In this document: positions 6,563-30,006 of the stretch, in pieces
Position numbering within the stretch: position 1 is the first letter of the stretch
Layout of the letters: every line of letters starts with the position of its first letter
Origin: Sphaerisporangium sp.
Lineage (GTDB): Bacteria > Actinomycetota > Actinomycetes > Streptosporangiales > Streptosporangiaceae
Direction of reading: 5' to 3'
DNA: 41,913 bases
NCBI GenBank assembly: GCA_025964675.1
Contig: JAOPYI010000272.1
Coordinates: forward strand, 1-41,913
Position numbers and translations under genes: made by a program
Notes under the pieces: model-generated
The model's database searches: none
What the model was told of the DNA's origin: nothing
The model's input: only the letters and a program-made list of their open reading frames with translations

Positions 6563-7587
6563 GCGTTTCGAGCTCCGTTCCGCTTCACGAGCAGCACGTT
6601 GATGAGGACGGCGCCGACGATGATGACGCCGCGGACCACGTCCTGGAAGAAGGGGTTGACCCCGAGAAGCACGAGGCCGTTGCCGATGACGGTGATGAAG
6701 GCGACGCCCAGCGCGGTGCCGAGCAAAGACCCCTTGCCGCCCGCCAGGGACGTGCCGCCGATGACCACCGCGGCGATGACATCGAACTCCAGACCGACCG
6801 ACGCGCCGCCGTTGCCGGACCCGAGTCGCGCGGCCAGCAGGACTCCACTCACCGCGGCGAGGAAACCGGTCGTCGCGAACAGGATCACGCGGATCCGGAA
6901 CACGGAGATGCCGGACAGGCGAGCGGCCTCGGCGTTACCCCCGACGGCGAACACCGAGCGGCCGTAGGCCGTGCGGTTCGCCACGAAGATGAACAGGGCG
7001 AACAGGATCGCCATGATGATGGCGGGGGTGGGGATCCCAACGATGCTGCCGGCCAGGAGGTCCAGCAGCCGGTTGGACTCCAGCGGGACCGGCAGGCCGT
7101 CGGTCATGTACTGCGCCAGGCCGCGCAGGGCGCTCCACAGGCCGAGCGTCGCCACGAACGACGGGATGCCCCAGCGGGCGCGCAGGAACCCGGCGCCGGC
7201 GCCGAGCAGCAGCCCCACGGCAAGGCAGAGCACGAGCGCGAGAGCGAACGGGACATGCCACTCCCCCGCGGCCTTGGCCAGCAGGACCGAGGAGAACGCC
7301 ACCGCGGGGCCGATGCTGATGTCGATCTCGCCCGCCACGATGACCAGCGTCATCGCCCACGCCACGACGCCGATCGTCGCGGCGTCGCGCAGCATGGCCA
7401 GCTGGTTCGTCACCGACAGGAATCCAGGCGCCATGGCGGCGAGGACCACGAAGAGCACCACGATGGCCCCGATGAGGCCGATCTCGTTGAGTCTTTGTGT
7501 GTTGCGCCCAAGCCAGCCCTCAGCGCGGGTACCGTCTCTCGCCACGGCTGGACTGGTCGGCTCGGTCGTGCTCATCGTTTCTCTCAT
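6559..7587 (-). CDS. Sugar ABC transporter permease (RbsC/MglC type)
   Basis: 342 residues with about ten hydrophobic segments, beginning near IGLIGAIVVLFVVLAAMAPGF. It contains the signature of CUT2 permeases: MTLVIVAGEIDISIGPAVAFSS early on, and AVVIGGTSLAGGKGSLLGTALG later, which docks with the ATPase. CUT2 systems carry monosaccharides such as ribose, galactose, xylose or fucose. One gene is present, so the membrane part is probably a homodimer. It sits between the ATPase and dehydrogenase genes, overlapping both by four bases (ATGA at each junction), so expression is tightly coupled. Confidence 0.95.
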   Translation of the reverse strand: MRETMSTTEPTSPAVARDGTRAEGWLGRNTQRLNEIGLIGAIVVLFVVLAAMAPGFLSVTNQLAMLRDAATIGVVAWAMTLVIVAGEIDISIGPAVAFSSVLLAKAAGEWHVPFALALVLCLAVGLLLGAGAGFLRARWGIPSFVATLGLWSALRGLAQYMTDGLPVPLESNRLLDLLAGSIVGIPTPAIIMAILFALFIFVANRTAYGRSVFAVGGNAEAARLSGISVFRIRVILFATTGFLAAVSGVLLAARLGSGNGGASVGLEFDVIAAVVIGGTSLAGGKGSLLGTALGVAFITVIGNGLVLLGVNPFFQDVVRGVIIVGAVLINVLLVKRNGARNA

Positions 7588-9077
7588 TCCTCAGCAATCG
7601 CGATGGCCAGGACTCGCTCGAGTTCGATCTCGTCGCCGGTGAGCTCGGCCACAGCCCGTCCGCTACGCAGGACGACGATGCGATCGCAGACGTCGGTCAA
7701 CTCCTCGACCTCGCTGGAGACGAAGACGACCGCCCGTCCGTCGTCGGCCAACTGACGCATCTGGTCGTAGATCTGGCGTTTGGCCTCCACGTCGACGCCG
7801 CGCGTGGGCTCGTCGAGCAGCAGCACGGTGCTTCCGGCGTGCAGCCAGCGGGCGAGAACGGTTTTCTGCTGGTTGCCCCCGCTCAGATCGCCGATCGGCG
7901 TGCCAGGCCGTGACGTCTTGATGGCGAGGCGGTCGATGAGCGCCCGGGCCGCTTCGCCGATGGCCCTGCGATCCAGGACGCCGGACCGGCTCACCCGCCG
8001 CAGGTCGCTCATGACGATGTTCTCGTCGACGCCCATGAGGGGCACGATGCCGTCACGCCGCCGGTTTTCAGGGGTGATGCCCAGGCCGCGGCGCAGCATG
8101 GTGGCGAAGGCCCCCGGCCGGACCGCCTCACCGCGGAGCCGCACTTCACCGGCGCCGGGACGGTCCAGGCCCATCAGCACCCGCAGGGTCTCCGTACGAC
8201 CGGAGCCGAGCACTCCGGCGATACCGAGGATCTCGCCGGGACGGATGTCGATGTCCAGGCCGTCCAGCTTGTCGGTGCGCAGGCCGCGCGCCGACAGCAC
8301 CGGCGGGTCCGAGCTTGGGCGCCGGACGCGCGCGGTGACGGCCTCGGGCGCGGTGCCGAGCATCATCGTGACGATCTCGCTCGTGGAGGCGGCGCCGACG
8401 GGGAGCGTCTCCACGATCCTGCCGTCGCGGACCACCGTCGCCGTGTCCGCGACCTGCCGGATCTCGTCCATGCGGTGGCTGACATAGATCACCGCGACGC
8501 CCTGCTCCGCGACGCGGCGCACTACATTGATCACCTGCCGCACTTCGGCGGCCGCCAGGGAACTGGTGGGCTCGTCGAGGATGAGCAGTGAGGGGTTCTG
8601 CCAGACCGCGCGCGCGATCTCCACCAGCTGCTGGCCCGCGGCTCCGAGCGAGCCGACGGGCCTGTCGATGTCGACGTCGACACCGATGCGCGCCATCGCC
8701 GCCCGGGCGTCGACACGCATCCGCCGCCAGTCGAGAGCGCCGCGTGCACTCGGCCACACGCCCATGAACAGGTTCTCCGCGACGCTCATGTCGGGGACGA
8801 GGCTCAGCTCCTGGTAGACCGTCGCGACCCCCAGGCCGGCGACCTCGCGGGTGCCGAGGCCCTTCAGCGACGTTCCGTCCACGAGCGCGTCGCCGGAGTC
8901 CAGTTGCTCGGCGCCGGAGAGGATTCTGATCAGCGTGGACTTGCCGGCGCCGTTCTTGCCCAGCAGCGCGCGTACCTCACCGCGCCGCACCGAGAAGTCG
9001 ACGTCGTTGAGGGCTGTGACACCGGGATAGCGCTTGGTGCCGGAGCGCACCTCTGCCACGACATCGGAGTTCGACAT
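7584..9077 (-). CDS. Sugar ABC transporter ATP-binding protein with two ABC domains (RbsA/MglA type)
   Basis: 497 residues with two nucleotide-binding domains in tandem, as in RbsA and MglA. The first has Walker A GKNGAGKST, a signature-like LGAAGQQLVEIARA and Walker B LLILDEPTSSL. The second has a degenerate Walker A, GVLGSGRTETL, then LSGGNQQKTVLARWL and Walker B VLLLDEPTRGVDV. The degenerate second P-loop is normal for CUT2 ATPases, where one site is catalytically weak. The ATG at 9077 follows the binding-protein gene after a 76-base gap that contains a hairpin. The 3' end overlaps the permease gene. Confidence 0.95.
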   Translation of the reverse strand: MSNSDVVAEVRSGTKRYPGVTALNDVDFSVRRGEVRALLGKNGAGKSTLIRILSGAEQLDSGDALVDGTSLKGLGTREVAGLGVATVYQELSLVPDMSVAENLFMGVWPSARGALDWRRMRVDARAAMARIGVDVDIDRPVGSLGAAGQQLVEIARAVWQNPSLLILDEPTSSLAAAEVRQVINVVRRVAEQGVAVIYVSHRMDEIRQVADTATVVRDGRIVETLPVGAASTSEIVTMMLGTAPEAVTARVRRPSSDPPVLSARGLRTDKLDGLDIDIRPGEILGIAGVLGSGRTETLRVLMGLDRPGAGEVRLRGEAVRPGAFATMLRRGLGITPENRRRDGIVPLMGVDENIVMSDLRRVSRSGVLDRRAIGEAARALIDRLAIKTSRPGTPIGDLSGGNQQKTVLARWLHAGSTVLLLDEPTRGVDVEAKRQIYDQMRQLADDGRAVVFVSSEVEELTDVCDRIVVLRSGRAVAELTGDEIELERVLAIAIAEE

Positions 9078-19412: not shown

Positions 19413-20657
19413 TCAGCCAGGTCGCCGTTCGTGTCGGGCCAGCCGGCTGAGGATCCAGAGCACGGGAAGGAACAGCACCGCAGCGTTGATCATCATCAAC
19501 GGCCAGCCGGTGAGGTCGACCGCGAACCCGAGGATGGCCGGTCCCGCAGCGCCACCGGCGGCATAGGCGATGGCGTACAGCCCGGTGTAGAGGCCGGTGA
19601 CCGAGGTAGTGCCTGCCGCGTTCCACAGCGCGACGATCGCGTTGACGGAGAACGCCGCGAATCCCATCGCCGAGATCGCGAGACCGACCACGGTCATCGG
19701 GACGGTGTGCAGGAGGCCGCCAAAGACCAGCCCACCGAGGAACACCAGCGCGCCGAACCAGATCATCCGCAGCTGGCCGACCCGCTGCGAGAACAGCGCG
19801 ATCGGCGCCGCCACCACGAAGAACGCGAACGCGCCCGCGATCCCGAGGCCACCGGCCGTGCCACGCGAGATGTCCAGCACCTCGATCGCGTACGGGGTGA
19901 ACAGCGACCGTAGCCCCTGCCACGTCGCGTTGTAGCCGAAGACGCCGACCAGGATCAGGAGCCGTGTCCGGTCGGGGTTCTGGACGATCTCCCGCAGGAC
20001 GTGCCGCATCTTCGGGACCTGCCCGGCGCCCTCACCGTCCAGGACACCGGCCACCGTCGGTTGCTGGCGGCGCAGGCCGGCGGCCGCGATCCAGAGGCCG
20101 GCGATGAGCAGGATGGCCGGGACGACGAACGCGAACTGTATGTGATCATCGACGAGCGTGAGGCTGATGAGCGCGGCGACTACCACGGTGAGCGCCACCG
20201 CGAGTTTCACGAAACCGTTCGCGGTGCTTCGCTGGGCCGGCCGGACGAAGTCGGCGAGCTGCGACTCGACGACCGGCCGGAACGAGTTGGCGATGAACGC
20301 GAAGCTGACGATGAGAGCGATGAGGACGGGAAGGCTGGACGCCCGCGGCAGGAAGACGAAGGGGACGGCGGCGAGGGGACCGCCGACGACGATGAAGATC
20401 AGGCGGTTACCGCGCCTCGCGCGATAGCGGTCGGACCGGTACCCCATCCAGGGCTGCACGAAGACCCCGAGCACGTTGTCGATGCCCATGACCAGGCCAA
20501 TGAGACCGGCGCTCGACACGTACCGGCGCAGCTCGGCCGGCACCTGGGCGTCGTAGAAGTTCCAGATCAGCTCGTGCCCGAACACCGCGGTAGCGATGAG
20601 GAAAACGACGCGCTTGCGGATCCGGGGCTGCACGTCGCTTGAAACGTTGTCGCGCAC
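19413..20657 (-). CDS. MFS transporter (SLC45/GPH-like)
   Basis: 414 residues with about twelve hydrophobic segments. MFS features are VMGIDNVLGVFVQPWMGYRSDRYRARRGNR (the loop 2-3 motif with D-R and basic residues), the central loop around residues 195-235, and a second-half bundle ending LTGWPLMMINAAVLFLPVLWILSRL. The WxGxxSD-type motif resembles sugar/proton symporters of the SLC45 or GPH groups. The GTG start at 20657 has AGGAGG upstream. It is divergent from the IclR-led operon. It is therefore a candidate importer for that operon's substrate, although the family also includes sugar carriers. Confidence 0.9.
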   Translation of the reverse strand: MRDNVSSDVQPRIRKRVVFLIATAVFGHELIWNFYDAQVPAELRRYVSSAGLIGLVMGIDNVLGVFVQPWMGYRSDRYRARRGNRLIFIVVGGPLAAVPFVFLPRASSLPVLIALIVSFAFIANSFRPVVESQLADFVRPAQRSTANGFVKLAVALTVVVAALISLTLVDDHIQFAFVVPAILLIAGLWIAAAGLRRQQPTVAGVLDGEGAGQVPKMRHVLREIVQNPDRTRLLILVGVFGYNATWQGLRSLFTPYAIEVLDISRGTAGGLGIAGAFAFFVVAAPIALFSQRVGQLRMIWFGALVFLGGLVFGGLLHTVPMTVVGLAISAMGFAAFSVNAIVALWNAAGTTSVTGLYTGLYAIAYAAGGAAGPAILGFAVDLTGWPLMMINAAVLFLPVLWILSRLARHERRPG

Positions 20658-20718
20658 GGTGGCCCTCCTTCCATCCGAGCTGGTTTCGGACTATGACTTC
20701 TAGCCGTCACGCAGCGAG

Positions 20719-20748
20719 ACTGTGGCAGGGCTCACATTGCGGTGTCAA
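20719..20748 (-). promoter_or_regulatory. Possible promoter of the MFS gene
   Basis: On the minus strand a perfect TTGACA (20748-20743) is followed, after 18 bases, by CACAGT (20724-20719), a poor -10 match. It lies about 60 bases upstream of the GTG start at 20657. The good -35 box is the main support. Confidence 0.3.
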
Positions 20749-20788
20749 GAGTGTGCAAGCGCTGACAAAGCACGGCGCGAACGGCTGG

Positions 20789-20817
20789 TTGACGAGCGGG
20801 CGACGGCATCGTAGTTT
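20789..20817 (+). promoter_or_regulatory. Promoter of the IclR operon
   Basis: TTGACG (20789-20794), a 17-base spacer and TAGTTT (20812-20817), which fits TANNNT. Transcription would begin near 20824, leaving a leader of about 38 bases that includes the GGGAGGA ribosome binding site before the GTG at 20862. Confidence 0.5.
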
Positions 20818-20836
20818 CAAATACTGCAAAATAAAC
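20814..20836. promoter_or_regulatory. Candidate IclR operator over the -10/+1 region
   Basis: A 23-bp AT-rich imperfect inverted repeat bounded by GTTT and AAAC covers the -10 box and the predicted transcription start. AT-rich imperfect palindromes at the autogenous promoter are typical IclR-family targets. The arms match at only about five of nine positions, so this is tentative. Confidence 0.35.
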
Positions 20837-20861
20837 ATCGAAAAATGGGAGGAGTGGTCTG

Positions 20862-21653
20862 GTGAGCCAGCTCACTGAGGGCGGAGCCACCGCACGCCGT
20901 GCCCTCCGTCTTCTCGAGGCGCTCGCCGCGTCCGGGCCGTACCCCTCGCTCGACCAGCTCGCCGCGTCGACCGGCCTGAGCAAGAGCACCGCGTACCGGC
21001 TCCTACGGGTCCTGCAGGACGAGCACTACGTCGAGCGCGCCGAGTCGGGCGGATACCGGCTGGGCAGCCGGATGGTCGGGCTCGCCGCCGCCGCGCTCCC
21101 GGAGCTGGACCTGTACGCCGCGGCCCGGCCTATCCTCAGGCGGCTGGCACAGCGCTCGCAGGAGACGGTGACGCTGCACCGGCGCGCCGGTGACCTCGCG
21201 ATCTTGGTCCTCGCGGCGGAGAGCGAGGAGTTCTCGCTCCGACGCGTGGCACAGATCGGTGAGGCGACCCCGCTCATACGCGGTGCCGCCGGCACGGCGA
21301 TCCTCGCGCAGACCGACGAATCCGACCGTCACGCGATCATCCAGCGCAACGTCGCGCCGTCCGAACGCGCCGCGCTGGAGACTCGCCTGGCCGACGTCCG
21401 CCACCGCGGCTTCGCCGTCTCCACCGGCGCCAACCACCCCGGCGTCCACGGCGTGGCCATCGCCGTACCGTCAACCGCCGCAAGCGCCCGGGCGACCTCC
21501 ATCGCGATCTCAGGACCCGGGTTCCGCTGGACGGAGGAGCGCATGGAGCAGTTCGCGCCCCAGCTCCGGGAGGTCGTGGCCGAGCTCTCCATACTGTTCG
21601 AGCAGGAGCCTGGCCGCGTCCACTTGCGAGCCGATCACGAAACGACGTCATGA
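20862..21653 (+). CDS. IclR-family transcriptional regulator
   Basis: 263 residues. The N-terminal winged helix has ARRALRLLEALAASG, SLDQLAASTGLSKSTAYRLLRVLQ (recognition helix) and YVERAESGGYRLGSRM (wing). The C-terminal ligand domain contains ARPILRRLAQRSQETVTLHRRAGD, IRGAAGTAILAQTDE and GFAVSTGANHPGVHGVAIAVP. IclR proteins usually sense a small carboxylic acid from the pathway they control. The GTG start has GGGAGGA upstream. The stop overlaps the PrpD-like gene (ATGA at 21650-21653), so the regulator and enzymes form one operon. Confidence 0.93.
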   Translation: MSQLTEGGATARRALRLLEALAASGPYPSLDQLAASTGLSKSTAYRLLRVLQDEHYVERAESGGYRLGSRMVGLAAAALPELDLYAAARPILRRLAQRSQETVTLHRRAGDLAILVLAAESEEFSLRRVAQIGEATPLIRGAAGTAILAQTDESDRHAIIQRNVAPSERAALETRLADVRHRGFAVSTGANHPGVHGVAIAVPSTAASARATSIAISGPGFRWTEERMEQFAPQLREVVAELSILFEQEPGRVHLRADHETTS

Positions 21654-23089
21654 GCACCGACATGGCGGCGAACGTCGAGGTCACCGGGCCGCTGACCGCC
21701 TGGGTGCACGGTCTGGCCCTCGCGGACGTGCCCGCTGCGGTCCTCGAACGCGCCAAGCACCTTCTGCTCGACGGTGTCGGCTGCGCGCTGATCGGTGCGC
21801 AGCTGCCGTGGTCGCGCGTGGCGACGGACGCGGTGACCGCCTTGGAGGGGACCGGCGACGCCGTGATCATCGGCACCGGACGGACCACGAGCCCCTCGGC
21901 CGCGGCGGTGCTCAACGGAACCTTCGTGCAGGGCTTCGAACTCGACGACTTCCACCCGTTCGCCCCGCTGCACAGCAACTCCCTCATCCTCCCGTCGGTG
22001 CTGTCCACCGCCCAGACGCTTCCCGGAGTCAGCGGCGCGCAGGCCCTGCTGGCCGCGATCGTCGGGTTCGAGGTCGGTCCCCGCGTCGGCCTGGCGCTGC
22101 ACGGGGCGCAGATGCTCTCACGCGGATGGCACTCAGGCGCGGTGTTCGGGACCCACACCAGCGCGATGGCAGCCGGCAAGCTGCGCGACCTCGACCCCGC
22201 CCGTCTCGAGGACGCGCTGGGACTGGCGGGCACGCAGTCGGGGGGGCTGATGGCCGCGCAGTACGAAGCGATGTCCAAGCGAATGCACCACGGGTTCGCC
22301 GCACGCGCCGGTTTCTACGCCGCAGGGCTCGCCGCCGCCGGGTACACGGGGATCAAGCGGGTCTTCGAGCGCGAGTACGGGGGATTTCTCGCCGTGTTCG
22401 GAGAAGGGCACGACCCGCAGCCGCAGCAGATCACCGCCGAGCTCGGCACGAGGTGGGAAACCTCGATGATCATGGTGAAGTCCTATGCCGCGATGGGCGG
22501 CGTGCACGGGGCGATCGACGCCGCGCGGGTCCTGCGTGACGACGGGCTCGACCCGAAGGCGATCACGCGCATCGACCTCACCGTGGGGCATGCGGTCTAC
22601 CACCACGGGTGGTGGCGGCCCGAGCGGCCACTCACGGCGATCGGCGCGCAGATGAACATCGGGTACGCGACCGCGGTGGCGTTGCTCGACGGCAACGTCC
22701 TGCCGGAGCAGTTCACGCCCGAGCGCATCGACGCCGACGACGTCTGGGGGCTGCTCGAACGCACCCACGTCCATCTCGACGAGAAGCTCACGGATGCTCC
22801 GATGACCCGGCGGTTCCGGACCGTGCTGCGCGTGACCCTCGACGACGGGTCGGCCCACGAGAAGACGGTCGACACGCCCCACGGCAGTCCCTTCGACCCG
22901 GTGACCAATGGCGAGGTCATCGCCAAGTTCCGGGCACTCATGGAACGCGTCATCGACGAGCCCCGCGCCCGCGCGATCGAACGCGCCGTTCTCGCCCTGG
23001 AGGATCTGGACCACCTCGACGACCTCGTGGACCTGCTTGCGTCCCCCGTCGCCGGCGCGCTCGACTCGAACGGAAGGACCGGCCCTTGA
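21650..23089 (+). CDS. MmgE/PrpD-family protein
   Basis: 479 residues, the family's usual size. It opens with an all-helical part (LTAWVHGLALADVPAAVLERAKHLLLDGVGCALIG) and contains family stretches AAVLNGTFVQGFELDDFHPFAPLHSNSLILPSVLS, GWHSGAVFGTHTSAMAAGKL and KSYAAMGGVHGAIDAARVL. It ends in the PrpD lid domain (RFRTVLRVTLDDGSAHEKTVDTPHGSPFDPVTNGEVIAKFRALM). Family members dehydrate 2-methylcitrate (PrpD), decarboxylate cis-aconitate or epimerise iminodisuccinate. A dehydration role is inferred from the lyase and hydro-lyase genes that follow. The next gene starts inside its stop codon. Confidence 0.92.
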   Translation: MSTDMAANVEVTGPLTAWVHGLALADVPAAVLERAKHLLLDGVGCALIGAQLPWSRVATDAVTALEGTGDAVIIGTGRTTSPSAAAVLNGTFVQGFELDDFHPFAPLHSNSLILPSVLSTAQTLPGVSGAQALLAAIVGFEVGPRVGLALHGAQMLSRGWHSGAVFGTHTSAMAAGKLRDLDPARLEDALGLAGTQSGGLMAAQYEAMSKRMHHGFAARAGFYAAGLAAAGYTGIKRVFEREYGGFLAVFGEGHDPQPQQITAELGTRWETSMIMVKSYAAMGGVHGAIDAARVLRDDGLDPKAITRIDLTVGHAVYHHGWWRPERPLTAIGAQMNIGYATAVALLDGNVLPEQFTPERIDADDVWGLLERTHVHLDEKLTDAPMTRRFRTVLRVTLDDGSAHEKTVDTPHGSPFDPVTNGEVIAKFRALMERVIDEPRARAIERAVLALEDLDHLDDLVDLLASPVAGALDSNGRTGP

Positions 23090-23988
23090 GCACCACCACC
23101 GCGCGGACTCGTCTGCGCACCATGATCGATGCCCGCGACCTCGTCGTCGCCCCCGGCGTCTTCGACGGCATCTCGGCCTCGATCGCGGCCCGCACCAAGC
23201 AGCACGCTGCCTACCTCACCGGCGCCGGCGTCGCCGCGTCCGGGTTCGGGCTCCCGGACGTCGGGCTCGTCACGCAGACCGAGATGGTGGAACGGGCCCG
23301 GATGATCGTGCGCGCGTGCGGCGACCTGCCCGTCATCGCCGACGCCGACACCGGCTACGGAGCGCCGATGAACGTCGTGCGCACCGTCCGCGAGTACGAG
23401 GCCGCGGGCGTCGCCGCCATCCAGCTGGAGGACCAGGCCTTCCCCAAGCGCTGCGGGCACCTGCCCGACAAGGAACTGGTGAGCGCCGACGACTTCCTCC
23501 TCACGCTGACCGCCGCGCTGGACGCCCGACAAGACCCCGACCTGCTCGTCATCGCGCGCACCGACGCGCGCGCCGTCCTCGGCCTCGACGAGGCGATCCA
23601 GCGCGCCAACCTGTACGCCGCGGCCGGCGCCGACGTCATCTTCGTCGAAGCGCCCGAAGGTGCCGACGAGATCGAACGGATCGCCCGCGAGGTCGAGGCG
23701 CCGAAGCTCGTCAACCTGGTCCTCGGCGGCCTGACGCCCCTGCAGTCCGCCGACCGGCTTCGCGAGCTCGGCTACGCGATCGCCATCCACCCGGCCAACG
23801 CCCTCGCCCACGCCGCGCTCGGCATGCTGAACGCGCTGTGCGAGCTGTCGGGCGAGAACGTCGCCGATCACCTCCCGACGAAGCCGTCGGAGTTCTTCGA
23901 CCTCGTCGGGATGCGCGAGTGGGCCGCCATCGGCGAGCGCTACCGGATCCCTCGCACGAGTGTCCCCTCCGGCGAGGAAGGAGCCTGA
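23086..23988 (+). CDS. Isocitrate lyase/PEP mutase-family carbon-carbon lyase
   Basis: 300 residues from a TTG at 23086 that overlaps the previous stop (TTGA) and has GGAAGGA nine bases upstream. The TIM-barrel family motifs are all there: LVVAPGVFDGISASIAA, YLTGAGVAASGFGLPD, PVIADADTGYG (metal-binding aspartates), AAIQLEDQAFPKRCGH (the KRCGH catalytic loop with the essential cysteine), LVIARTDAR and DVIFVEAPE. The cysteine loop is the mark of C-C lyases such as 2-methylisocitrate lyase and 2,3-dimethylmalate lyase rather than PEP mutase. The expected products are pyruvate plus a mono- or dicarboxylate. The true substrate depends on the neighbouring hydro-lyase genes. Confidence 0.93.
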   Translation: MSTTTARTRLRTMIDARDLVVAPGVFDGISASIAARTKQHAAYLTGAGVAASGFGLPDVGLVTQTEMVERARMIVRACGDLPVIADADTGYGAPMNVVRTVREYEAAGVAAIQLEDQAFPKRCGHLPDKELVSADDFLLTLTAALDARQDPDLLVIARTDARAVLGLDEAIQRANLYAAAGADVIFVEAPEGADEIERIAREVEAPKLVNLVLGGLTPLQSADRLRELGYAIAIHPANALAHAALGMLNALCELSGENVADHLPTKPSEFFDLVGMREWAAIGERYRIPRTSVPSGEEGA

Positions 23989-23991
23989 CCG

Positions 23992-25236
23992 ATGGGCATG
24001 ACCATGATCGAGAAGCTGCTGGCACGCAAGGCAGCTCTTCCACTTGTCCAGGCCGGGGACACGGTCGTCGTCGACGTCGACATGTGCGTCCTCATCGACC
24101 TACAGTTCGCCACCACCTGGGTGCAGCCGCTGAAGATCGCCGACCCCGATCGCGTGACGGTCGTGATGGACCACGCCGTCCCGGCGCCCTCGCTGAAGGA
24201 CGCCACCGGAGGGACGCACGCGCGGGCGTTCGTGAAGGCGTTCGGGATCGAGCGGTTCTACGACGTCGGCCGGCACGGCATCTGCCACGAGGTGATCGCC
24301 GAGAACGGGCTGGCGCGGCCGGGCGAGGTCCTGGCGTGCACCGACTCGCACACCTGCGCGGCCGGCGCGTACAACACGGCCGCGCGCGGACTCGGACCGG
24401 TGGAGATGTACGCCATCCTGTGCACGGGATCGACCTGGTTTCAGGTCGCCCCGACCGTGCGCTACGAGCTCACGGGCCGGCTCCCGGAACACGTCAGCGG
24501 GAAGGACGTCTTCCTCCATATCGCGGCGACGTGGGGTGACGCGACCAACCAGAACCTCGAGTACGGCGGGCCCGGGCTGGCCTCCGTCCCGATGAACGAC
24601 CGTCGCACGATCGCGACGCAGGGTGCCGAGGTCTCCGCCGACTTCAGCACGTTCGGCGTCGACGACGTCCTGCGCTCCTTCCTCGCCGAGCGCGGGGTCA
24701 CCGGCTTCGAGGCCGCCGATGCCGACGACGACGCCACCTACCTCGACGTGCGGGCCGTCGACCTCGACGATCTCGAGCCGTACGTCGCCCGGCCGGGCAC
24801 CGTGAGCAAGAACGGCGTTCCCGTGTCGCAGATCGAGCGTCGCCGCCTGGACCAGGCGTTCATCGGGTCGTGCGCCAACGGCCAGCTCGAGGACCTGCGC
24901 ATCGCGGCCGAGATCCTCGACGGCCGCCAGGTCGCGCCCGGAGTCCGGCTGCTCGTGACCCCGGCCTCCCAGCAGGTCTACCGTGAGGCGATGAGGGCCG
25001 GCTACCTGCAGAGCCTCGCCGACGCCGGAGCGGTGGTCACGAACTCCACCTGTGGTGCGTGCTTCGGCTATCACATGGGGGTGCTCGGCCCGGGTGAGGT
25101 CTGCCTGACCTCGAGCACACGCAACTTCACCGGACGCATGGGAAGCACCGAGGCGGAGATCTTCATGGCCTCACCGGCGACCGTGGCCGCGTCCGCCGTC
25201 GCCGGTTACATCACCGACCCCAGGAGCCTCACATGA
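23992..25236 (+). CDS. LeuC/HacA/DmdA-like hydro-lyase large subunit (4Fe-4S)
   Basis: 414 residues, the short form typical of HacA-type and dimethylmaleate-hydratase-type large subunits; bacterial LeuC of leucine synthesis is nearer 470. Cluster-binding cysteines are visible in [13 protein letters not shown] and in [13 protein letters not shown] (CxxC). Substrate-loop elements are [44 protein letters not shown] and [14 protein letters not shown]. Aconitase-superfamily enzymes of this size add or remove water on alkyl-malate or homoaconitate-type acids. The ATG follows the lyase stop after three bases, and the stop overlaps the small-subunit start (ATGA). Confidence 0.92.
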
Positions 25237-25799
25237 GCCCAGCCGTCGAACCGATCACCGGACGCGCCTGGGTGTTCGGCGACTCGCTGAACACCGACGC
25301 GATGTACCCGGCGCATGCGATGAAGCTGGACCTGGCCGAGGCCGCCAAGCACGTCTTCTACCAGGTCCGTCCCGGTTGGACCGATCTCGTGCAGCCTGGG
25401 GACATCGTCGTGGCGGGCAAGAACTTCGGTGTCGGATCCTCCCGTCCGGTCGCCAACTTGTTTCAGCACCTCGGCGTCGCGGCCCTCATCGCGGAGGAGT
25501 TCAACTCGCTGTTCCTGCGCAACGCCATCAACGCGGGGCTGCCGGCGCTCACGGTCCCGGGCGCGACCACGTTCTTCTCCGACGGCGACACCGCCACCCT
25601 CGACGTGACCACAGGCCGCTACGCCAACGAGAGCACCGGAGTCGAGGAACGAACAGCACCGCTGCCCGACCTCGTGCTCGACATCATCGGCAACGGAGGT
25701 GTCCTTCCGATGCTCGCCCGCGCCGGCTACCTTCCCGAAGCCGTCGCAGGGCTCCTGCTGAACGGCGCCGTCACCATCAGCGCCACCAGCGCGGCCTGA
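25233..25799 (+). CDS. LeuD/HacB/DmdB-like hydro-lyase small subunit
   Basis: 188 residues of the swivelling aconitase domain 4. It contains [21 protein letters not shown] (opening strand with the substrate-facing NTD), [44 protein letters not shown] and a C-terminal hydrophobic region. The GVGSSRP motif is the substrate-binding serine/arginine loop, which in LeuD reads GSSRE. The P in place of E deserves attention as a sign of different substrate recognition. It pairs with the LeuC-like subunit, whose stop it overlaps. It closes the IclR-PrpD-lyase-hydrolyase operon; a decayed MFS fragment begins directly after. Confidence 0.9.
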
Positions 25800-25800
25800 A

Positions 25801-26142
25801 GACAGACCCTCCTCGCTGCTGGTCAGCGTGTCCGTCGCGCTGCCGCTGCTCTCTCCGACCTGGACGGTCCAGCTGGCCGGCGCGGTCATCGGCGGTCTCG
25901 GCTTCGGCGCCTACCTCTCGGTCGACCAGGCGCTGGTCACGCTCGTTCTGCCCGCGGCCAAGGACAGCGGGCGCGACCTCGGTGTCTTCCACATCGCGTT
26001 GAACGCCCCGCAGGTCGTCGCACCGTTGGCCGGCTCGCTGGTCGTCGCCCACCTTGGCGGCTACCCCGCCCTGTTCGTCGCCGGCGGCTTGCTCTCGCTC
26101 ATCGGAGCGCTCATGATCATGCCGGTGAGAAGCGTCCGGTAG
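25801..26142 (+). pseudogene. C-terminal fragment of an MFS transporter
   Basis: Beginning two bases after the LeuD-like stop, about 113 codons encode the last third of an MFS transporter: VSVALPLLSPTWTVQLAGAV, GLGFGAYLSVDQALVTLVLP, DLGVFHIALNAPQVVAPLAGSLVV and LFVAGGLLSLIGALMIMPVRS. These are three or four membrane helices of the C-terminal bundle. There is no start codon with a ribosome binding site, and the N-terminal two thirds are missing. It is therefore a truncated gene. The GPH-like phrasing suggests a sugar or organic-acid carrier once stood here, perhaps the original transporter of this operon. Confidence 0.8.
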
Positions 26143-27023: not shown

Positions 27024-28097
27024 ATGTCCGCTCTCCCCCTTCGCCATGCCCCGCGAAGGCATGCACACGTCCTTCTCTCCCTGCTCATCGGGCTGGCGTC
27101 GCTGACCGCGTGCGGCGGCGGTGCCCCATCCGGATCGGTTCCGGCTCTCGCGCCTGACGCGCCGTTGCCGGCCAAAGTGCCGAAGGGCACCAGACTCCGA
27201 GTCGGCGATCCCACCACCAAGGTGGCACTCGAGCTGTCCGGAGAAATCAGCGCGTTCTCCTTCGATGTCGAGTGGGCCAACATCAGCGGTGGCCCGCAGA
27301 CCAGCGAGGCGTTCCGCGCCGACGCTCTCGACGTCGGGGCGGTCGCGGAGATCCCCGCGATCCACGCCACCTGGACGAACCTGCCCGTGAAGATCGTGGC
27401 CTCCAAGTTCCGCAAGGACCCGATCCACCACCCGACCTACGAACTGGGCATCGCCCCGAGGGTCGCGGTGAAGACGCTCGCCGACCTGCGGGGCAAGAAG
27501 ATCGCCTACAGTCCCGGCCAGGCGCAGGGCGCGCTCGTACTCCGGGTACTGAAGAAGGCCGGGCTCACCAAACAGGATGTGACGCTGGTCGAGCTTCCGA
27601 GCACCGGCGACGTCTACGTCAACGCGCTCGCGAGTCACCAGGTCGACGTCGCCCCGCTCGGCGGAGTCAATATCAGGCGGTACCCGGCCAAGTACGGCAA
27701 GGACGGCGCCACCACGATCCCGCACGGTATCCGCGACGACCCCAGCCATCTCTACGTCCGGACCTCCACGCTCAAGGACCCGGCCAAGGCGGCGGCCATC
27801 CGTGAGTACGTACAGGCCTGGGCACGCGCCTCCGTCTGGGTCTACCGGCACCCCAAGGAGTGGATCGAGGGTTACTACGTCAAGAGCCAGGGCCTCACCC
27901 TCGAAGACGGCCGGTACCTCGTCGATCTGGCCGGGGAGCCGGACATCCCGGATAAATGGACCGACGCGATCGCCCGCCATCAGGAGACCATCGATCTGCT
28001 GGCCGCCGAGACCGGCAACAAGGTGTTGAACGCCAAAGATCTCTATGACCTTCGCTACGAGTCCGTGGCCGCCACGGCCCTGAAGACGGGTGCCTAG
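27024..28097 (+). CDS. Sulfonate/nitrate-type ABC substrate-binding lipoprotein (SsuA-like)
   Basis: 357 residues. The N-terminus has arginine/histidine residues, then VLLSLLIGLASLTAC with lipidation at Cys30. The mature part is a NMT1/SsuA-type binding protein: RLRVGDPTTKVALELSGE, DALDVGAVAEIPAIHATWTNLPVKIVAS, VKTLADLRGKKIAYSPGQAQGALVLRVLKKAGLT and VYVNALASHQVDVAPLGG. This family binds aliphatic sulfonates, taurine, nitrate or thiamine precursors. The cysteine leader peptide upstream argues for a sulfur source. The ATG has GAAGGG upstream. Confidence 0.9.
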   Translation: MSALPLRHAPRRHAHVLLSLLIGLASLTACGGGAPSGSVPALAPDAPLPAKVPKGTRLRVGDPTTKVALELSGEISAFSFDVEWANISGGPQTSEAFRADALDVGAVAEIPAIHATWTNLPVKIVASKFRKDPIHHPTYELGIAPRVAVKTLADLRGKKIAYSPGQAQGALVLRVLKKAGLTKQDVTLVELPSTGDVYVNALASHQVDVAPLGGVNIRRYPAKYGKDGATTIPHGIRDDPSHLYVRTSTLKDPAKAAAIREYVQAWARASVWVYRHPKEWIEGYYVKSQGLTLEDGRYLVDLAGEPDIPDKWTDAIARHQETIDLLAAETGNKVLNAKDLYDLRYESVAATALKTGA

Positions 28098-28099
28098 CG

Positions 28100-29020
28100 A
28101 TGGAGGCGCGGCTCACCACACCGCGGAAGCCGGCGCGACACGCCACCGTTGACGCGGCCTCGCATCCGACTCCGGCCGCGACCGCCGAGGCGACCCTCGA
28201 CGCGCCGGCGGAGCGGACACGCCGACGTCCGTCCCGCCGTGCCCCACGCCGGCTCGGACCCGGTAAGCGCATACGGTTCGGAACCCTGCTCGGCCCGCTG
28301 CTCCTTCTCACCGCGTGGACGGCCGGCTCAGCGACGGGTCTGCTCGACACCAGGGCAATGTCAGCACCGTGGACCGTCGTCACCACCACCGCCGGCCTGA
28401 TCGAGAGCGGCCGACTGCAGGACAACCTGCTCACCTCCCTCGGAAGGGTGGGTCTCGGCCTCGTTTTCGGCGTGGCACTCGGCACCGTCCTCGCCCTGGT
28501 CTCCGGCCTGAGCCGCTGGGGGGAGGCGGTCATCGACGGGCCGGTGCAGATCAAACGCGCGATCCCGGCGCTGGCGCTGATGCCGCTCCTGATCCTGTGG
28601 CTCGGCATCGGCGAGGTCATGAAGGTGACCACGATCACGCTCGGCGTCCTGGTCCCGGTCTACGTCCACCTTCACAACGGGCTGCGCGGCATCGACAGCA
28701 GGTACATCGAACTCGCCGAGACACTCCGCCTCGGCCACGCCGCCTTCATACGCCGGGTCGTACTCCCGGGGGCGCTGCCGGGGTTCCTGCTGGGGATGCG
28801 CTTCGCGGTCACCGCCGCGTGGCTGTTCCTCGTGGTGGTCGAGCAGATCAACTCCACCAGCGGCATCGGCTACATGATGGATCTCGCGCGCACGTACGGA
28901 CAGACCGACATCATCATCGTCGGTCTGGTCCTCTACGGCCTGCTCGGCCTGCTCTCCGACGGCGCGGTGCGCCTCATCCAGAGGAGGGCGTTGTCATGGC
29001 AACGGACGCTGGGGGGTTGA
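28100..29020 (+). CDS. Sulfonate-type ABC transporter permease (SsuC-like)
   Basis: 306 residues. A basic, alanine/arginine-rich cytoplasmic head of about 60 residues is followed by six membrane segments from FGTLLGPLLLLTAWTAGSATG onward. The EAA coupling loop is recognisable in IELAETLRLGHAAFIRRVVLPGALP. SsuC/TauC/NrtB family features are LLTSLGRVGLGLVFGVALGTVLALVSGLS, IPALALMPLLILWLGIGE and MRFAVTAAWLFLVVVEQINSTSGIGYMMDLA. The start follows the binding-protein stop by two bases; the end overlaps the ATPase gene by 25 bases. Confidence 0.92.
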   Translation: MEARLTTPRKPARHATVDAASHPTPAATAEATLDAPAERTRRRPSRRAPRRLGPGKRIRFGTLLGPLLLLTAWTAGSATGLLDTRAMSAPWTVVTTTAGLIESGRLQDNLLTSLGRVGLGLVFGVALGTVLALVSGLSRWGEAVIDGPVQIKRAIPALALMPLLILWLGIGEVMKVTTITLGVLVPVYVHLHNGLRGIDSRYIELAETLRLGHAAFIRRVVLPGALPGFLLGMRFAVTAAWLFLVVVEQINSTSGIGYMMDLARTYGQTDIIIVGLVLYGLLGLLSDGAVRLIQRRALSWQRTLGG

Positions 29021-30006
29021 CCGTCACGGCCCCCGCGGTGCGGATCGCCGGCCTGACGCGGGCGTATGGCGACCGTATCGTCCTGGACCATCTGGACCTG
29101 GAGATCGGCGCCGGCGAGTTCGTCGCGCTGCTCGGGCAGAGCGGATCGGGAAAGAGCACGCTGCTGCGCGCGCTCGCCGGTCTCGACCACGACGTGGCCG
29201 GTGATGGACTCATCGACATCCCCGACGAGGTTTCCGTCATCTTCCAGGACTCACGCCTTCTGCCCTGGCAACGGGTCCTCGACAACGTCGTCCTCGGACT
29301 CCCGGGCCCCGACCTGACAGCCCGAGGACGGACGGCACTCGCCGAGGTGGGACTCGCAGGCCGCGAACAGGCATGGCCGAACCAGCTGTCCGGCGGCGAG
29401 CAGCAGCGGGTCGCGCTGGCGCGATCCCTCGTACGGGAACCGAAACTCCTTCTCGCCGACGAGCCCTTCGGCGCCCTGGACGCGCTGACCCGTATCCGCA
29501 TGCACGCCCTGCTGCGCCGGCTGTGTGACCGGCACCAGCCGGCGGTCCTGCTCGTGACCCACGATGTCGACGAGGCCATCGTGCTCGCCGATCGAGTGCT
29601 CGTGATCGACCAGGGGCGGATCGCGGCCAAGCGCGTCATCGATGCCGGCACATCTCGAATCTCCACCAACGCTCGGTTCGCTGAGATCCGCGCACACCTG
29701 TTGCACGCCCTCGGCGTGACCGGAGAAGGGAGCCCCAGTGAAGACGAGACCACTCGACACTCCACGGCAGCTGAACCTGAATCTGTTCATCTATCCCGGT
29801 GGCCACCACGAGGCGGCCTGGCGGTACCGGCAGTACACCCGCGACAGAGCCGATCTCGTCACAGGCTCGGCCTGAGTCCGCCGCGGCCGTCCCGGCCTCC
29901 GTACCGGCCCGGCGCGTGCCGGGACCTTCCGACTCCCCGTATCGCCTGTTCCGTATTCCGCCTGTTCCTGCACCCCTGTCCCTGGAAGGACGTCCAGCTT
30001 TGTTAA
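28996..30006 (+). CDS. Sulfonate-type ABC transporter ATPase (SsuB-like) with a foreign C-terminal tail
   Basis: The ATG at 28996, with GAGGAGG upstream, opens a 336-residue frame. The first 245 residues are a normal SsuB-type ATPase: Walker A GQSGSGKST (47-55), Q-loop IFQDSRLLPW, signature LSGGEQQRVALARSL, Walker B LLLADEPFGALDAL and H-loop LLVTHDVDEA. Relatives are 240-270 residues. Here the frame runs on about 90 more residues, rich in Arg/Pro/Ser, through a truncated monooxygenase gene and on to a TAA at 30004-30006. The tail looks like out-of-frame DNA rather than a domain. The gene therefore appears to have lost its native stop when the downstream DNA was replaced. Confidence 0.85.
   Translation: MATDAGGLTVTAPAVRIAGLTRAYGDRIVLDHLDLEIGAGEFVALLGQSGSGKSTLLRALAGLDHDVAGDGLIDIPDEVSVIFQDSRLLPWQRVLDNVVLGLPGPDLTARGRTALAEVGLAGREQAWPNQLSGGEQQRVALARSLVREPKLLLADEPFGALDALTRIRMHALLRRLCDRHQPAVLLVTHDVDEAIVLADRVLVIDQGRIAAKRVIDAGTSRISTNARFAEIRAHLLHALGVTGEGSPSEDETTRHSTAAEPESVHLSRWPPRGGLAVPAVHPRQSRSRHRLGLSPPRPSRPPYRPGACRDLPTPRIACSVFRLFLHPCPWKDVQLC
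29738..29875 (+). pseudogene. N-terminal fragment of an FMN-dependent (NtaA/SnaA/DszA-type) monooxygenase
   Basis: A GTG at 29738 with GGAGAAGGGA upstream opens a 45-codon frame encoding LNLNLFIYPGGHHEAAW, the highly conserved N-terminus of bacterial-luciferase-like monooxygenases of the NtaA/SnaA/DszA/SoxA group. After about 40 residues the similarity stops and the frame ends at TGA 29873-29875; intact relatives are around 430-460 residues. In intact operons such enzymes release sulfite from sulfonates or open sulfur heterocycles, fitting the transporter genes upstream. Here the rest of the gene is gone. Confidence 0.75.

Follow-up and report, generated by a model that had tools for sequence, protein, structure and literature searches.

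A candidate catabolic cassette for branched di- or tricarboxylic acids in Sphaerisporangium sp., combining an MmgE/PrpD-family enzyme with a C-C lyase and a two-part hydro-lyase

The stretch of DNA analysed here, referred to as the window, comprises 41,913 nucleotides of Sphaerisporangium sp. (contig JAOPYI010000272.1) and contains five tightly coupled genes for an IclR-family regulator, an MmgE/PrpD-family enzyme (in the following PrpD), a C-C lyase of the isocitrate-lyase/PEP-mutase superfamily and the large and small subunits of an aconitase-family hydro-lyase (hydratase), with an MFS transporter gene in divergent orientation in front of them (Table 1; all coordinates are positions in the window, forward strand). 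The IclR/PrpD and the large/small subunit junctions are ATGA overlaps, the PrpD/lyase junction is a TTGA overlap, and the lyase and large-subunit genes are separated by a 3-base gap (23989–23991). A sequence-only reading of the window had described this arrangement and had recognized a KRCGH-type lyase and a two-part hydro-lyase of the short HacA/DmdA type; all its coordinates are borne out, the gene families agree between Pfam and NCBIfam searches of the window proteins, and the KRCGH loop is found in the lyase. The large subunit passes the subfamily cut-off of the short HacA family (407.3 vs 385.7 bits) and the small subunit that of the LeuD/DmdB family (132.9 vs 108.95 bits), and an NCBIfam equivalog cut-off is reached by none of the four enzyme subunits. 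The MFS protein is the probable importer of the cassette substrate, and the IclR protein probably provides local control.

Table 1. Genes and extent of the cassette in the window, and loci of relatives with a PEBP gene near the module (the PrpD/lyase/hydratase gene set)
Feature	Position or loci	Strand	Remarks
MFS transporter, divergent	19413-20657	-	Pfam MFS_1 101.5 bits, MFS_2 44.8
IclR-family regulator, GTG start	20862-21653	+	above the cut-offs of IclR_C and HTH_IclR, below every NCBIfam equivalog cut-off
MmgE/PrpD-family enzyme, ATG start	21650-23089	+	cis-aconitate-decarboxylase/iminodisuccinate-epimerase branch; proposed first enzyme
Isocitrate-lyase/PEP-mutase superfamily C-C lyase, TTG start	23086-23988	+	dimethylmalate-lyase-like pocket
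Aconitase-family large subunit, short HacA/DmdA type, ATG start	23992-25236	+	GSC and CGAC cysteine motifs kept
LeuD/DmdB-family small subunit, ATG start	25233-25799	+	altered specificity loop MYPA-HAMKL and GSSRP
Conserved, probably mobile cassette, extent	19434-25768	.	single blastn block to Acrocarpospora macrocephala L027
PEBP (YbhB/YbcL-like) near module	23 loci among L028-L057		
PEBP near module	L059, L065, L073, L074, L076, L083, L088, L089, L094, L102, L105		
PEBP near module, further loci	L017, L118-L120		

Genome contigs were scanned with a profile of three PrpD sequences, which gave 111 relatives; the best 80 were kept and correspond to 79 loci (L027–L105) with PrpD identities of 54–92%, which are not independent of each other (29 are mycobacterial and several are near-duplicates). 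Partners were scored with phmmer (E 1e-8) up to 10 kb on each side of PrpD. A lyase and a hydratase large subunit are both found in 71 of the 79 loci. Of these 71 loci, 70 have a lyase match of more than 200 bits, 56 have both partners no farther than 5 kb from PrpD, and 69 have their best matches on the same strand as PrpD. Locus L067 shows only a 46-bit lyase fragment (7492–7833, + strand) just before the LeuC-type gene, and the lyase gene is perhaps broken or frame-shifted there. In the remaining eight loci (L044, L048, L051, L071, L077, L078, L084, and L085) the contig breaks off no more than 2.4 kb from PrpD on one or both sides, and in three of them one partner is still visible (the lyase in L044 and L051, the hydratase in L085). 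A rough background figure comes from 31 genomes of the window's family, in which all MmgE/PrpD matches (28) and all PEP-mutase-family matches, both at E 1e-15, were set against each other by eye. Leaving aside the window gene and two genes of G406:C65 (part of such a set), 25 MmgE/PrpD genes remain; three of them have a PEP-mutase-family lyase within 10 kb, in G421:C54, G397:C82 and G418:C1 (in the last at about 9.9 kb). This figure counts the lyase alone, is scored unlike the 71 of 79 and is unadjusted for contig ends. The co-occurrence exceeds chance by this comparison, and a chance association is rejected on this ground. The sequence-only reading had made its case dependent on conserved co-occurrence, which is found; it had framed the question as one of actinobacterial neighborhoods, and the set is conserved there and occurs in beta- and alphaproteobacteria as well.

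The hydratase is of two lineages. Among the 79 loci the large subunit is DmdA-type in 38, of the long LeuC type in 34 and missing in 7, the hydratase of the proteobacterial loci being LeuCD-derived. In a large-subunit tree (quick method, 67 rows, mycobacteria thinned) the actinobacterial DmdA-type subunits form a 20-row set (support 97), inside which that of L020, a locus without PrpD, is also found, and a second set (support 95) unites 35 LeuC-type subunits. Eight LeuC-type rows fall outside the latter, among them E. coli LeuC and the LeuC of the window genome itself. In both lineages the specificity loop of the small subunit (selected rows) departs from that of the solved isopropylmalate and homoaconitate enzymes: window-type subunits have MYPA-HAMKL or -FAMKL with GSSRP, and those of the long type mostly IIRIERLT or IIRIDRLT. 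The window large subunit stays below the LeuC equivalog cut-offs (TIGR00170, 166.7 vs 560.25 bits; TIGR02083, 373.7 vs 610.65 bits) and below that of methanogen HacA (331.1 vs 550 bits). The cassette hydratase shares with LeuCD isopropylmalate isomerase the family and the Fe-S cysteine motifs, but it belongs to a separate clade, has an altered specificity loop and is encoded in a genome with its own LeuC elsewhere. That two hydratase lineages have been recruited beside the same PrpD and lyase suggests that the three enzyme steps belong together, and is the strongest sign of it.

Window PrpD is 20% identical to E. coli PrpD (MAFFT alignment). Among solved structures, phmmer matches window PrpD to Bacillus IRG1, to cis-aconitate decarboxylases (CAD) and to iminodisuccinate epimerase; methylcitrate dehydratases are absent from the hits at E 0.001. 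The AlphaFold2 model (pLDDT 91.5) is closest in fold to human CAD (E 7.8e-26; TM 0.83, query), Bacillus IRG1 (3.5e-24) and iminodisuccinate epimerase (4.9e-22), with the methylcitrate dehydratases trailing (4.8e-18 and weaker), and the methylcitrate dehydratase equivalog cut-offs are missed (NF042438, actinobacterial PrpD, 35.4 vs 950 bits; PRK09425, 20.5 vs 575 bits). In a tree of 72 rows (quick method, long branches, E. coli PrpD as sole methylcitrate dehydratase reference) a 63-row set (support 98), which includes L018 and L117, excludes E. coli PrpD, Bacillus IRG1 and the two paralogues of the window genome. E97, D99, D100, H108, H161, K210, K277, and H319 are identical in 35 of 35 rows of the PrpD alignment. 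The active-site set of CAD, which we take to be D93, T97, H103, H159, K207, and H277, is not complete in window PrpD, CAD being nevertheless its nearest fold: H103, H159, and K207 are kept in the family (as H108, H161, and K210), and H277 is kept in window PrpD and is L in two Burkholderiaceae rows. By sequence and modeled fold, the PrpD family is CAD/epimerase-like. It should be added that a second, different MmgE/PrpD protein accompanies the first in L069, L101, and L116 and stands in for it in L019; the two clades are possibly a two-step pair or a heteromer.

The window lyase keeps the metal-binding and the catalytic (base and acid) residues of its superfamily. In E. coli PrpB, T212 and R241 presumably hold the distal carboxylate of methylisocitrate. 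Among 74 lyase-family sequences of at least 230 amino acids from L027–L105 (a few of them second lyases of a locus) the T212 position is V in 72, the F214 position is G in 70, and the R241 position is G in 21, M in 14, K in 14, A in 10, another residue in 14 and R in just one (L086). The window lyase has V and A, respectively, at the T212 and R241 positions. The R241 arginine is missing and V takes the T212 position also in the solved 2,3-dimethylmalate lyase 3fa3, a fungal enzyme, and neither T212 nor R241 is present in the petal death protein 1zlp. As compared with this one solved fungal enzyme, the lyase pocket is of the dimethylmalate-lyase type and unlike that of methylisocitrate lyase. 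Because T212 and R241 are lost, substrates of the methylisocitrate type, which the sequence-only reading had entertained, are disfavored. The PrpB cut-off is missed (261.6 vs 354.4 bits); in the lyase tree, which contains one PrpB reference, branches are left open and those of the references are long, and no reference lyase stands out as the nearest. The role of T212 and R241 was looked up in PMC11982470 and PMC7609661, and neither residue is discussed in the available parts of these papers.

An isolated block of the window is shared with Acrocarpospora macrocephala (L027): blastn gives one match (19434–25768, 6335 columns, 89.4% identity), which includes nearly the whole MFS gene, and no second one at E 1e-10 in the 21 kb compared. 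Occurrence is patchy. Of 396 genomes of the phylum, with four candidates per genome scored, 4 contain a PrpD match at E 1e-60, and of 100 genomes of the family likewise 4; the window's genome is included in both counts. One of the four in the family (G477) is just 46% identical, and the two other genomes of the same genus in the 100-genome family sample have no match. Because of the isolated shared block and this patchiness, the cassette is probably horizontally mobile. Its G+C content is 69.5%, and that of the window is 69.0%.

We propose that these genes form a catabolic cassette, self-contained and horizontally mobile, by which a branched (alkyl-substituted) di- or tricarboxylic acid is taken up and broken down, a reading of the sequence evidence to which we assign a probability of about 0.5. 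It builds on direct observations, namely the gene content, the coupling, the conservation of the set, the signs of mobility, the kept catalytic residues and the non-methylisocitrate pocket; the order of steps, the substrate, the products and the regulation are what we infer. The branched acid would be imported by the MFS protein and converted by PrpD, via decarboxylation, elimination or a proton shift, to a cis-alkene dicarboxylate of the citraconate or dimethylmaleate type. The 4Fe-4S hydro-lyase would hydrate the alkene to a 2- and/or 3-alkylmalate, which the Mg-dependent lyase would cleave in a retro-aldol reaction at C2-C3 to pyruvate (or another 2-oxo acid) and a monocarboxylate (acetate, propionate or longer), with expression governed by IclR. 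The sequence-only reading had assumed a dehydrate-rehydrate-cleave logic, of which the hydratase/lyase part is retained in our scheme, but "dehydrate" as first step is not established, PrpD being nearer to CAD and iminodisuccinate epimerase.

DmdAB dimethylmaleate hydratase and 2,3-dimethylmalate lyase function in the clostridial fermentation of nicotinate. The last three cassette genes are nearest to this pair, as had been suggested from the sequence: the lyase adjoins a short HacA/DmdA-type large and a DmdB-type small subunit, and its pocket is like that of the fungal dimethylmalate lyase 3fa3, the Eubacterium barkeri sequences being outside the comparison. The cassette differs in that it has MmgE/PrpD as usual partner, that its hydratase is replaceable by a LeuCD-derived one, and that none of the further enzymes of the nicotinate pathway is recognized in it (the upstream mutase was not searched for). 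As to the methylitaconate isomerase of that pathway, PrpF-type matches occur in 17 of 79 loci but not in the window. Judged from sequence, the cassette would most economically be explained as operating in the manner of dimethylmaleate hydratase and dimethylmalate lyase, preceded by a new first enzyme; we do not claim that it belongs to that pathway. An MmgE/PrpD protein is also found in a catabolic operon for branched dicarboxylates in Pseudomonas (PA0878–PA0886, for itaconate and methylsuccinate), but this operon, as described in the accessible part of the paper, encodes a CoA-based route (Ict, Ich, and Ccl) (PMC9875883), whereas the cassette hydratase and lyase belong to CoA-independent families. 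A search of open-licence papers (titles and starts of abstracts) found the PrpD/lyase/hydratase set nowhere described, which does not show it to be unpublished. The claim of an apparently uncharacterized, conserved catabolic cassette distinct from the methylcitrate cycle has held up, the methylcitrate cut-offs being missed and the set conserved. A constant gene set across phyla with signs of movement marks a nutrient for which no breakdown route was found assigned in the literature searched. The cassette offers three small, directly assayable enzymes, two hydratase lineages with apparently one job and a testable metabolic role for PEBP (see below).

Several points weigh against the proposal of a branched-acid cassette. 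A decarboxylase function of PrpD is unproven, CAD D93 being E in the family and T97 falling in a gap, and the window cassette is without the tautomerase that an itaconate-type product would need. The argument from T212 and R241 assumes the carboxylate-holding role ascribed to these residues from the PrpB structures, and the K at 241 in 14 of the 74 lyases could also hold a carboxylate. The loci were collected via PrpD and thus give no measure of how frequent the lyase/hydratase pair is without it. Indeed, the plasmid loci L020–L024 have lyase and hydratase with no match to the cassette PrpD in 16–18 kb: on a Rhodococcus plasmid (L020) the order is IclR-lyase-DmdA-DmdB, on an Arthrobacter plasmid (L021, 9101–16389) the pair has a LeuB-like dehydrogenase beside it and an ABC transporter, and on a Variovorax plasmid (L024) a PrpF gene is beside the pair, together with tripartite transporter proteins. 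Because such pairs occur without PrpD, the pair is a common sink, fed by more than one entry enzyme. In L120 (PrpD 62% identity) there is no lyase or hydratase in 17 kb and a PEBP gene lies beside PrpD, and neither partner is found in the more distant L018 (39%, 17 kb) and L117 (46%, 9-kb contig).

The cassette shares with the methylcitrate cycle (PrpBCD) the formal dehydrate/hydrate/cleave logic and the enzyme superfamilies, but it lacks PrpC, misses the equivalog cut-offs and has a PrpD of another branch. A plain methylcitrate operon is disfavored by the missed cut-offs and because the PrpD fold is nearest to CAD and the lyase has lost T212 and R241; the finding of all enzymes among ordinary methylcitrate enzymes, which would have told against the sequence-only reading, is not what the PrpD tree gives. 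That reading had also noted the absence of a synthase, which holds for the cassette; elsewhere the genome has two citrate synthase genes, AcnA, isocitrate lyase, LeuC (contig C130) and two further MmgE/PrpD genes, which no NCBIfam model matches at E 0.001. A variant of the pathway with the synthase elsewhere, in which a 2-alkylcitrate goes via a 2-alkylisocitrate to succinate and a 2-oxo acid, could draw on one of these citrate synthases, which passes the 2-methylcitrate synthase/citrate synthase II subfamily cut-off (465 vs 421.3 bits), and on the window PrpD, since none of the three MmgE/PrpD proteins reaches the PrpD equivalog. In addition, a Sphingomonas cluster (L086) has a citrate-synthase-like gene directly upstream of PrpD and the one lyase that keeps R241, and the lyase gene of a Variovorax methylcitrate cluster, which is not the cassette set, is called dml in the part of the paper available (PMC9804861). 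The altered pocket and the PrpB and actinobacterial PrpD scores given above argue against this variant, as do the E. coli PrpC query, which matches in only 1 of 79 loci (L086), and the carrier genes of many clusters, which suggest an imported acid; we regard it as improbable.

A CoA-free route from aconitate via itaconate (CAD), citraconate and citramalate to pyruvate and acetate comes first among the unlikely alternatives. The nearest folds are CAD, the invariant H108, H161, and K210 align with the CAD histidines and lysine, and PrpF-type isomerases match in 17 of 79 loci; however, D93 and T97 are not kept, the window cassette has no isomerase, and an organism with AcnA needs no dedicated sink for plain aconitate. 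Next in probability, and doubtful also, is a PrpD that acts as epimerase, a role proposed for PA0881 of Pseudomonas, so that an alkylmalate or alkylsuccinate of the wrong configuration can enter the hydratase and lyase steps; the methylcitrate variant ranks below this. In fold, CAD and Bacillus IRG1 are followed by iminodisuccinate epimerase, growth data on an MmgE/PrpD methylsuccinate isomerase are given in the accessible part of PMC9875883, and the pairs without PrpD (L020–L024) are what an auxiliary enzyme would allow. Yet PrpD of at least 54% identity is almost always found with the pair where the contig allows, which is more than an optional enzyme needs. Chance neighbors or a remnant of the leucine pathway, in line with which automatic annotation names the hydratase genes of one annotated relative leuC/leuD, are very improbable: the conserved co-occurrence, the block shared with Acrocarpospora and the genome's own LeuC on C130 speak against both, and a leucine-operon remnant is rejected in view of the missed LeuC cut-offs, the separate clades and the altered small-subunit loops.

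The Sphingomonas cluster L086 (844–17990) also contains genes for a TonB receptor, PrpF, a CoA-transferase III, an acyl-CoA dehydrogenase and a citrate-type carrier. It encodes two citrate-synthase-like proteins with an N-terminal HTH domain, which score below every listed citrate synthase cut-off.

Further genes recur near the set. By the phmmer scoring, PEBP matches are present in 34 of the 79 loci, a tripartite tricarboxylate binding protein in 22, PrpF in 17 (a PrpF-type match is not found in the window), an AMP-forming ligase in 16 and an MBL-fold protein in 7. Of 29 mycobacterial loci, 23 have PEBP after the small subunit, and the remaining 6 break off no more than 2.7 kb behind PrpD. 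PEBP is also found in 11 non-mycobacterial loci (one Streptacidiphilus, ten proteobacterial), in some of them several kb away. Eight PEBPs aligned have a stretch ahead of the PEBP domain in common. When a Paraburkholderia PEBP was compared by tblastn with 72,556 plasmids, two Caballeronia plasmids topped 234 records, and both have the module beside PEBP (seen in L017, by positions in the second); four weaker homologues inspected, on plasmids L129–L132, are not beside the module. The window cassette is without PEBP; two PEBP genes found in the genome are located on different contigs and give weak matches (63 and 58 bits). Whether PEBP and PrpF exclude each other was also considered, but L089 and L094 have both and non-mycobacterial cases are few, so that we make no such claim. 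The MBL-fold hydrolase gene is directly after the small subunit in 7 of 7 loci (L055, L059, L060, L062, L063, L070, and L100) and could encode a lactone or anhydride hydrolase. It is also seen in L115 and, weakly, in L116; the hosts are Streptosporangiaceae, Streptomycetaceae, and Pseudonocardiaceae.

The PEBP subfamily recurring beside the set, as in fungal maleidride clusters, is, by analogy, the most novel lead. As far as described in the available part of PMC8851701, alkylcitrate dehydratase and PEBP are counted as core in these clusters, although PEBP is not strictly required, three clusters being without it; the dehydratases themselves are described as near relatives of methylcitrate dehydratases. 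An aconitate-decarboxylase-like enzyme of Aspergillus niger, HadA, converts hexylaconitate to hexylitaconate, according to the part of PMC7338620 available. The likeness to the bacterial module lies in HadA and in the fact that most maleidride clusters combine PEBP with an enzyme of the PrpD family, and the difference in that the fungal clusters are, in the same sources, biosynthetic, with a synthase and a polyketide or fatty acid synthase, and have methylcitrate-type dehydratases unlike window PrpD. Because PEBP stands beside PrpD-type enzymes in bacterial and fungal clusters, it is conceivable by analogy, if rather unlikely, that the module serves the bacterial breakdown of fungal-type alkylcitrate-derived acids (alkylaconitates, alkylitaconates, dialkylmaleic acids, and anhydrides). 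The CAD-like PrpD (cf. HadA) and the PEBP subfamily would handle the alkylated maleate or anhydride, with PrpF or the MBL-fold hydrolase in PEBP's place elsewhere; the hydratase would form an alkyl-methylmalate, the lyase would release pyruvate and a fatty acid, and the AMP-forming ligase would activate the latter. The window copy would be a minimal form without PEBP. If true, the module would be a catabolic mirror image of the fungal alkylcitrate/maleidride clusters and would give PEBP a metabolic role.

Downstream of the cassette, directly after the small subunit, lies an open reading frame of 104 amino acids (25828–26142, + strand), which has no blastn counterpart in the 21 kb of L027 compared. 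It resembles the end of an MFS carrier (weakly, 23 bits with a multidrug-resistance superfamily model) and is possibly the remnant of a second transporter. Further on (27024–30006, + strand) open reading frames follow that by eye suggest an ABC transporter of the nitrate/sulfonate type, consisting of a substrate-binding lipoprotein, a permease and an ATPase.

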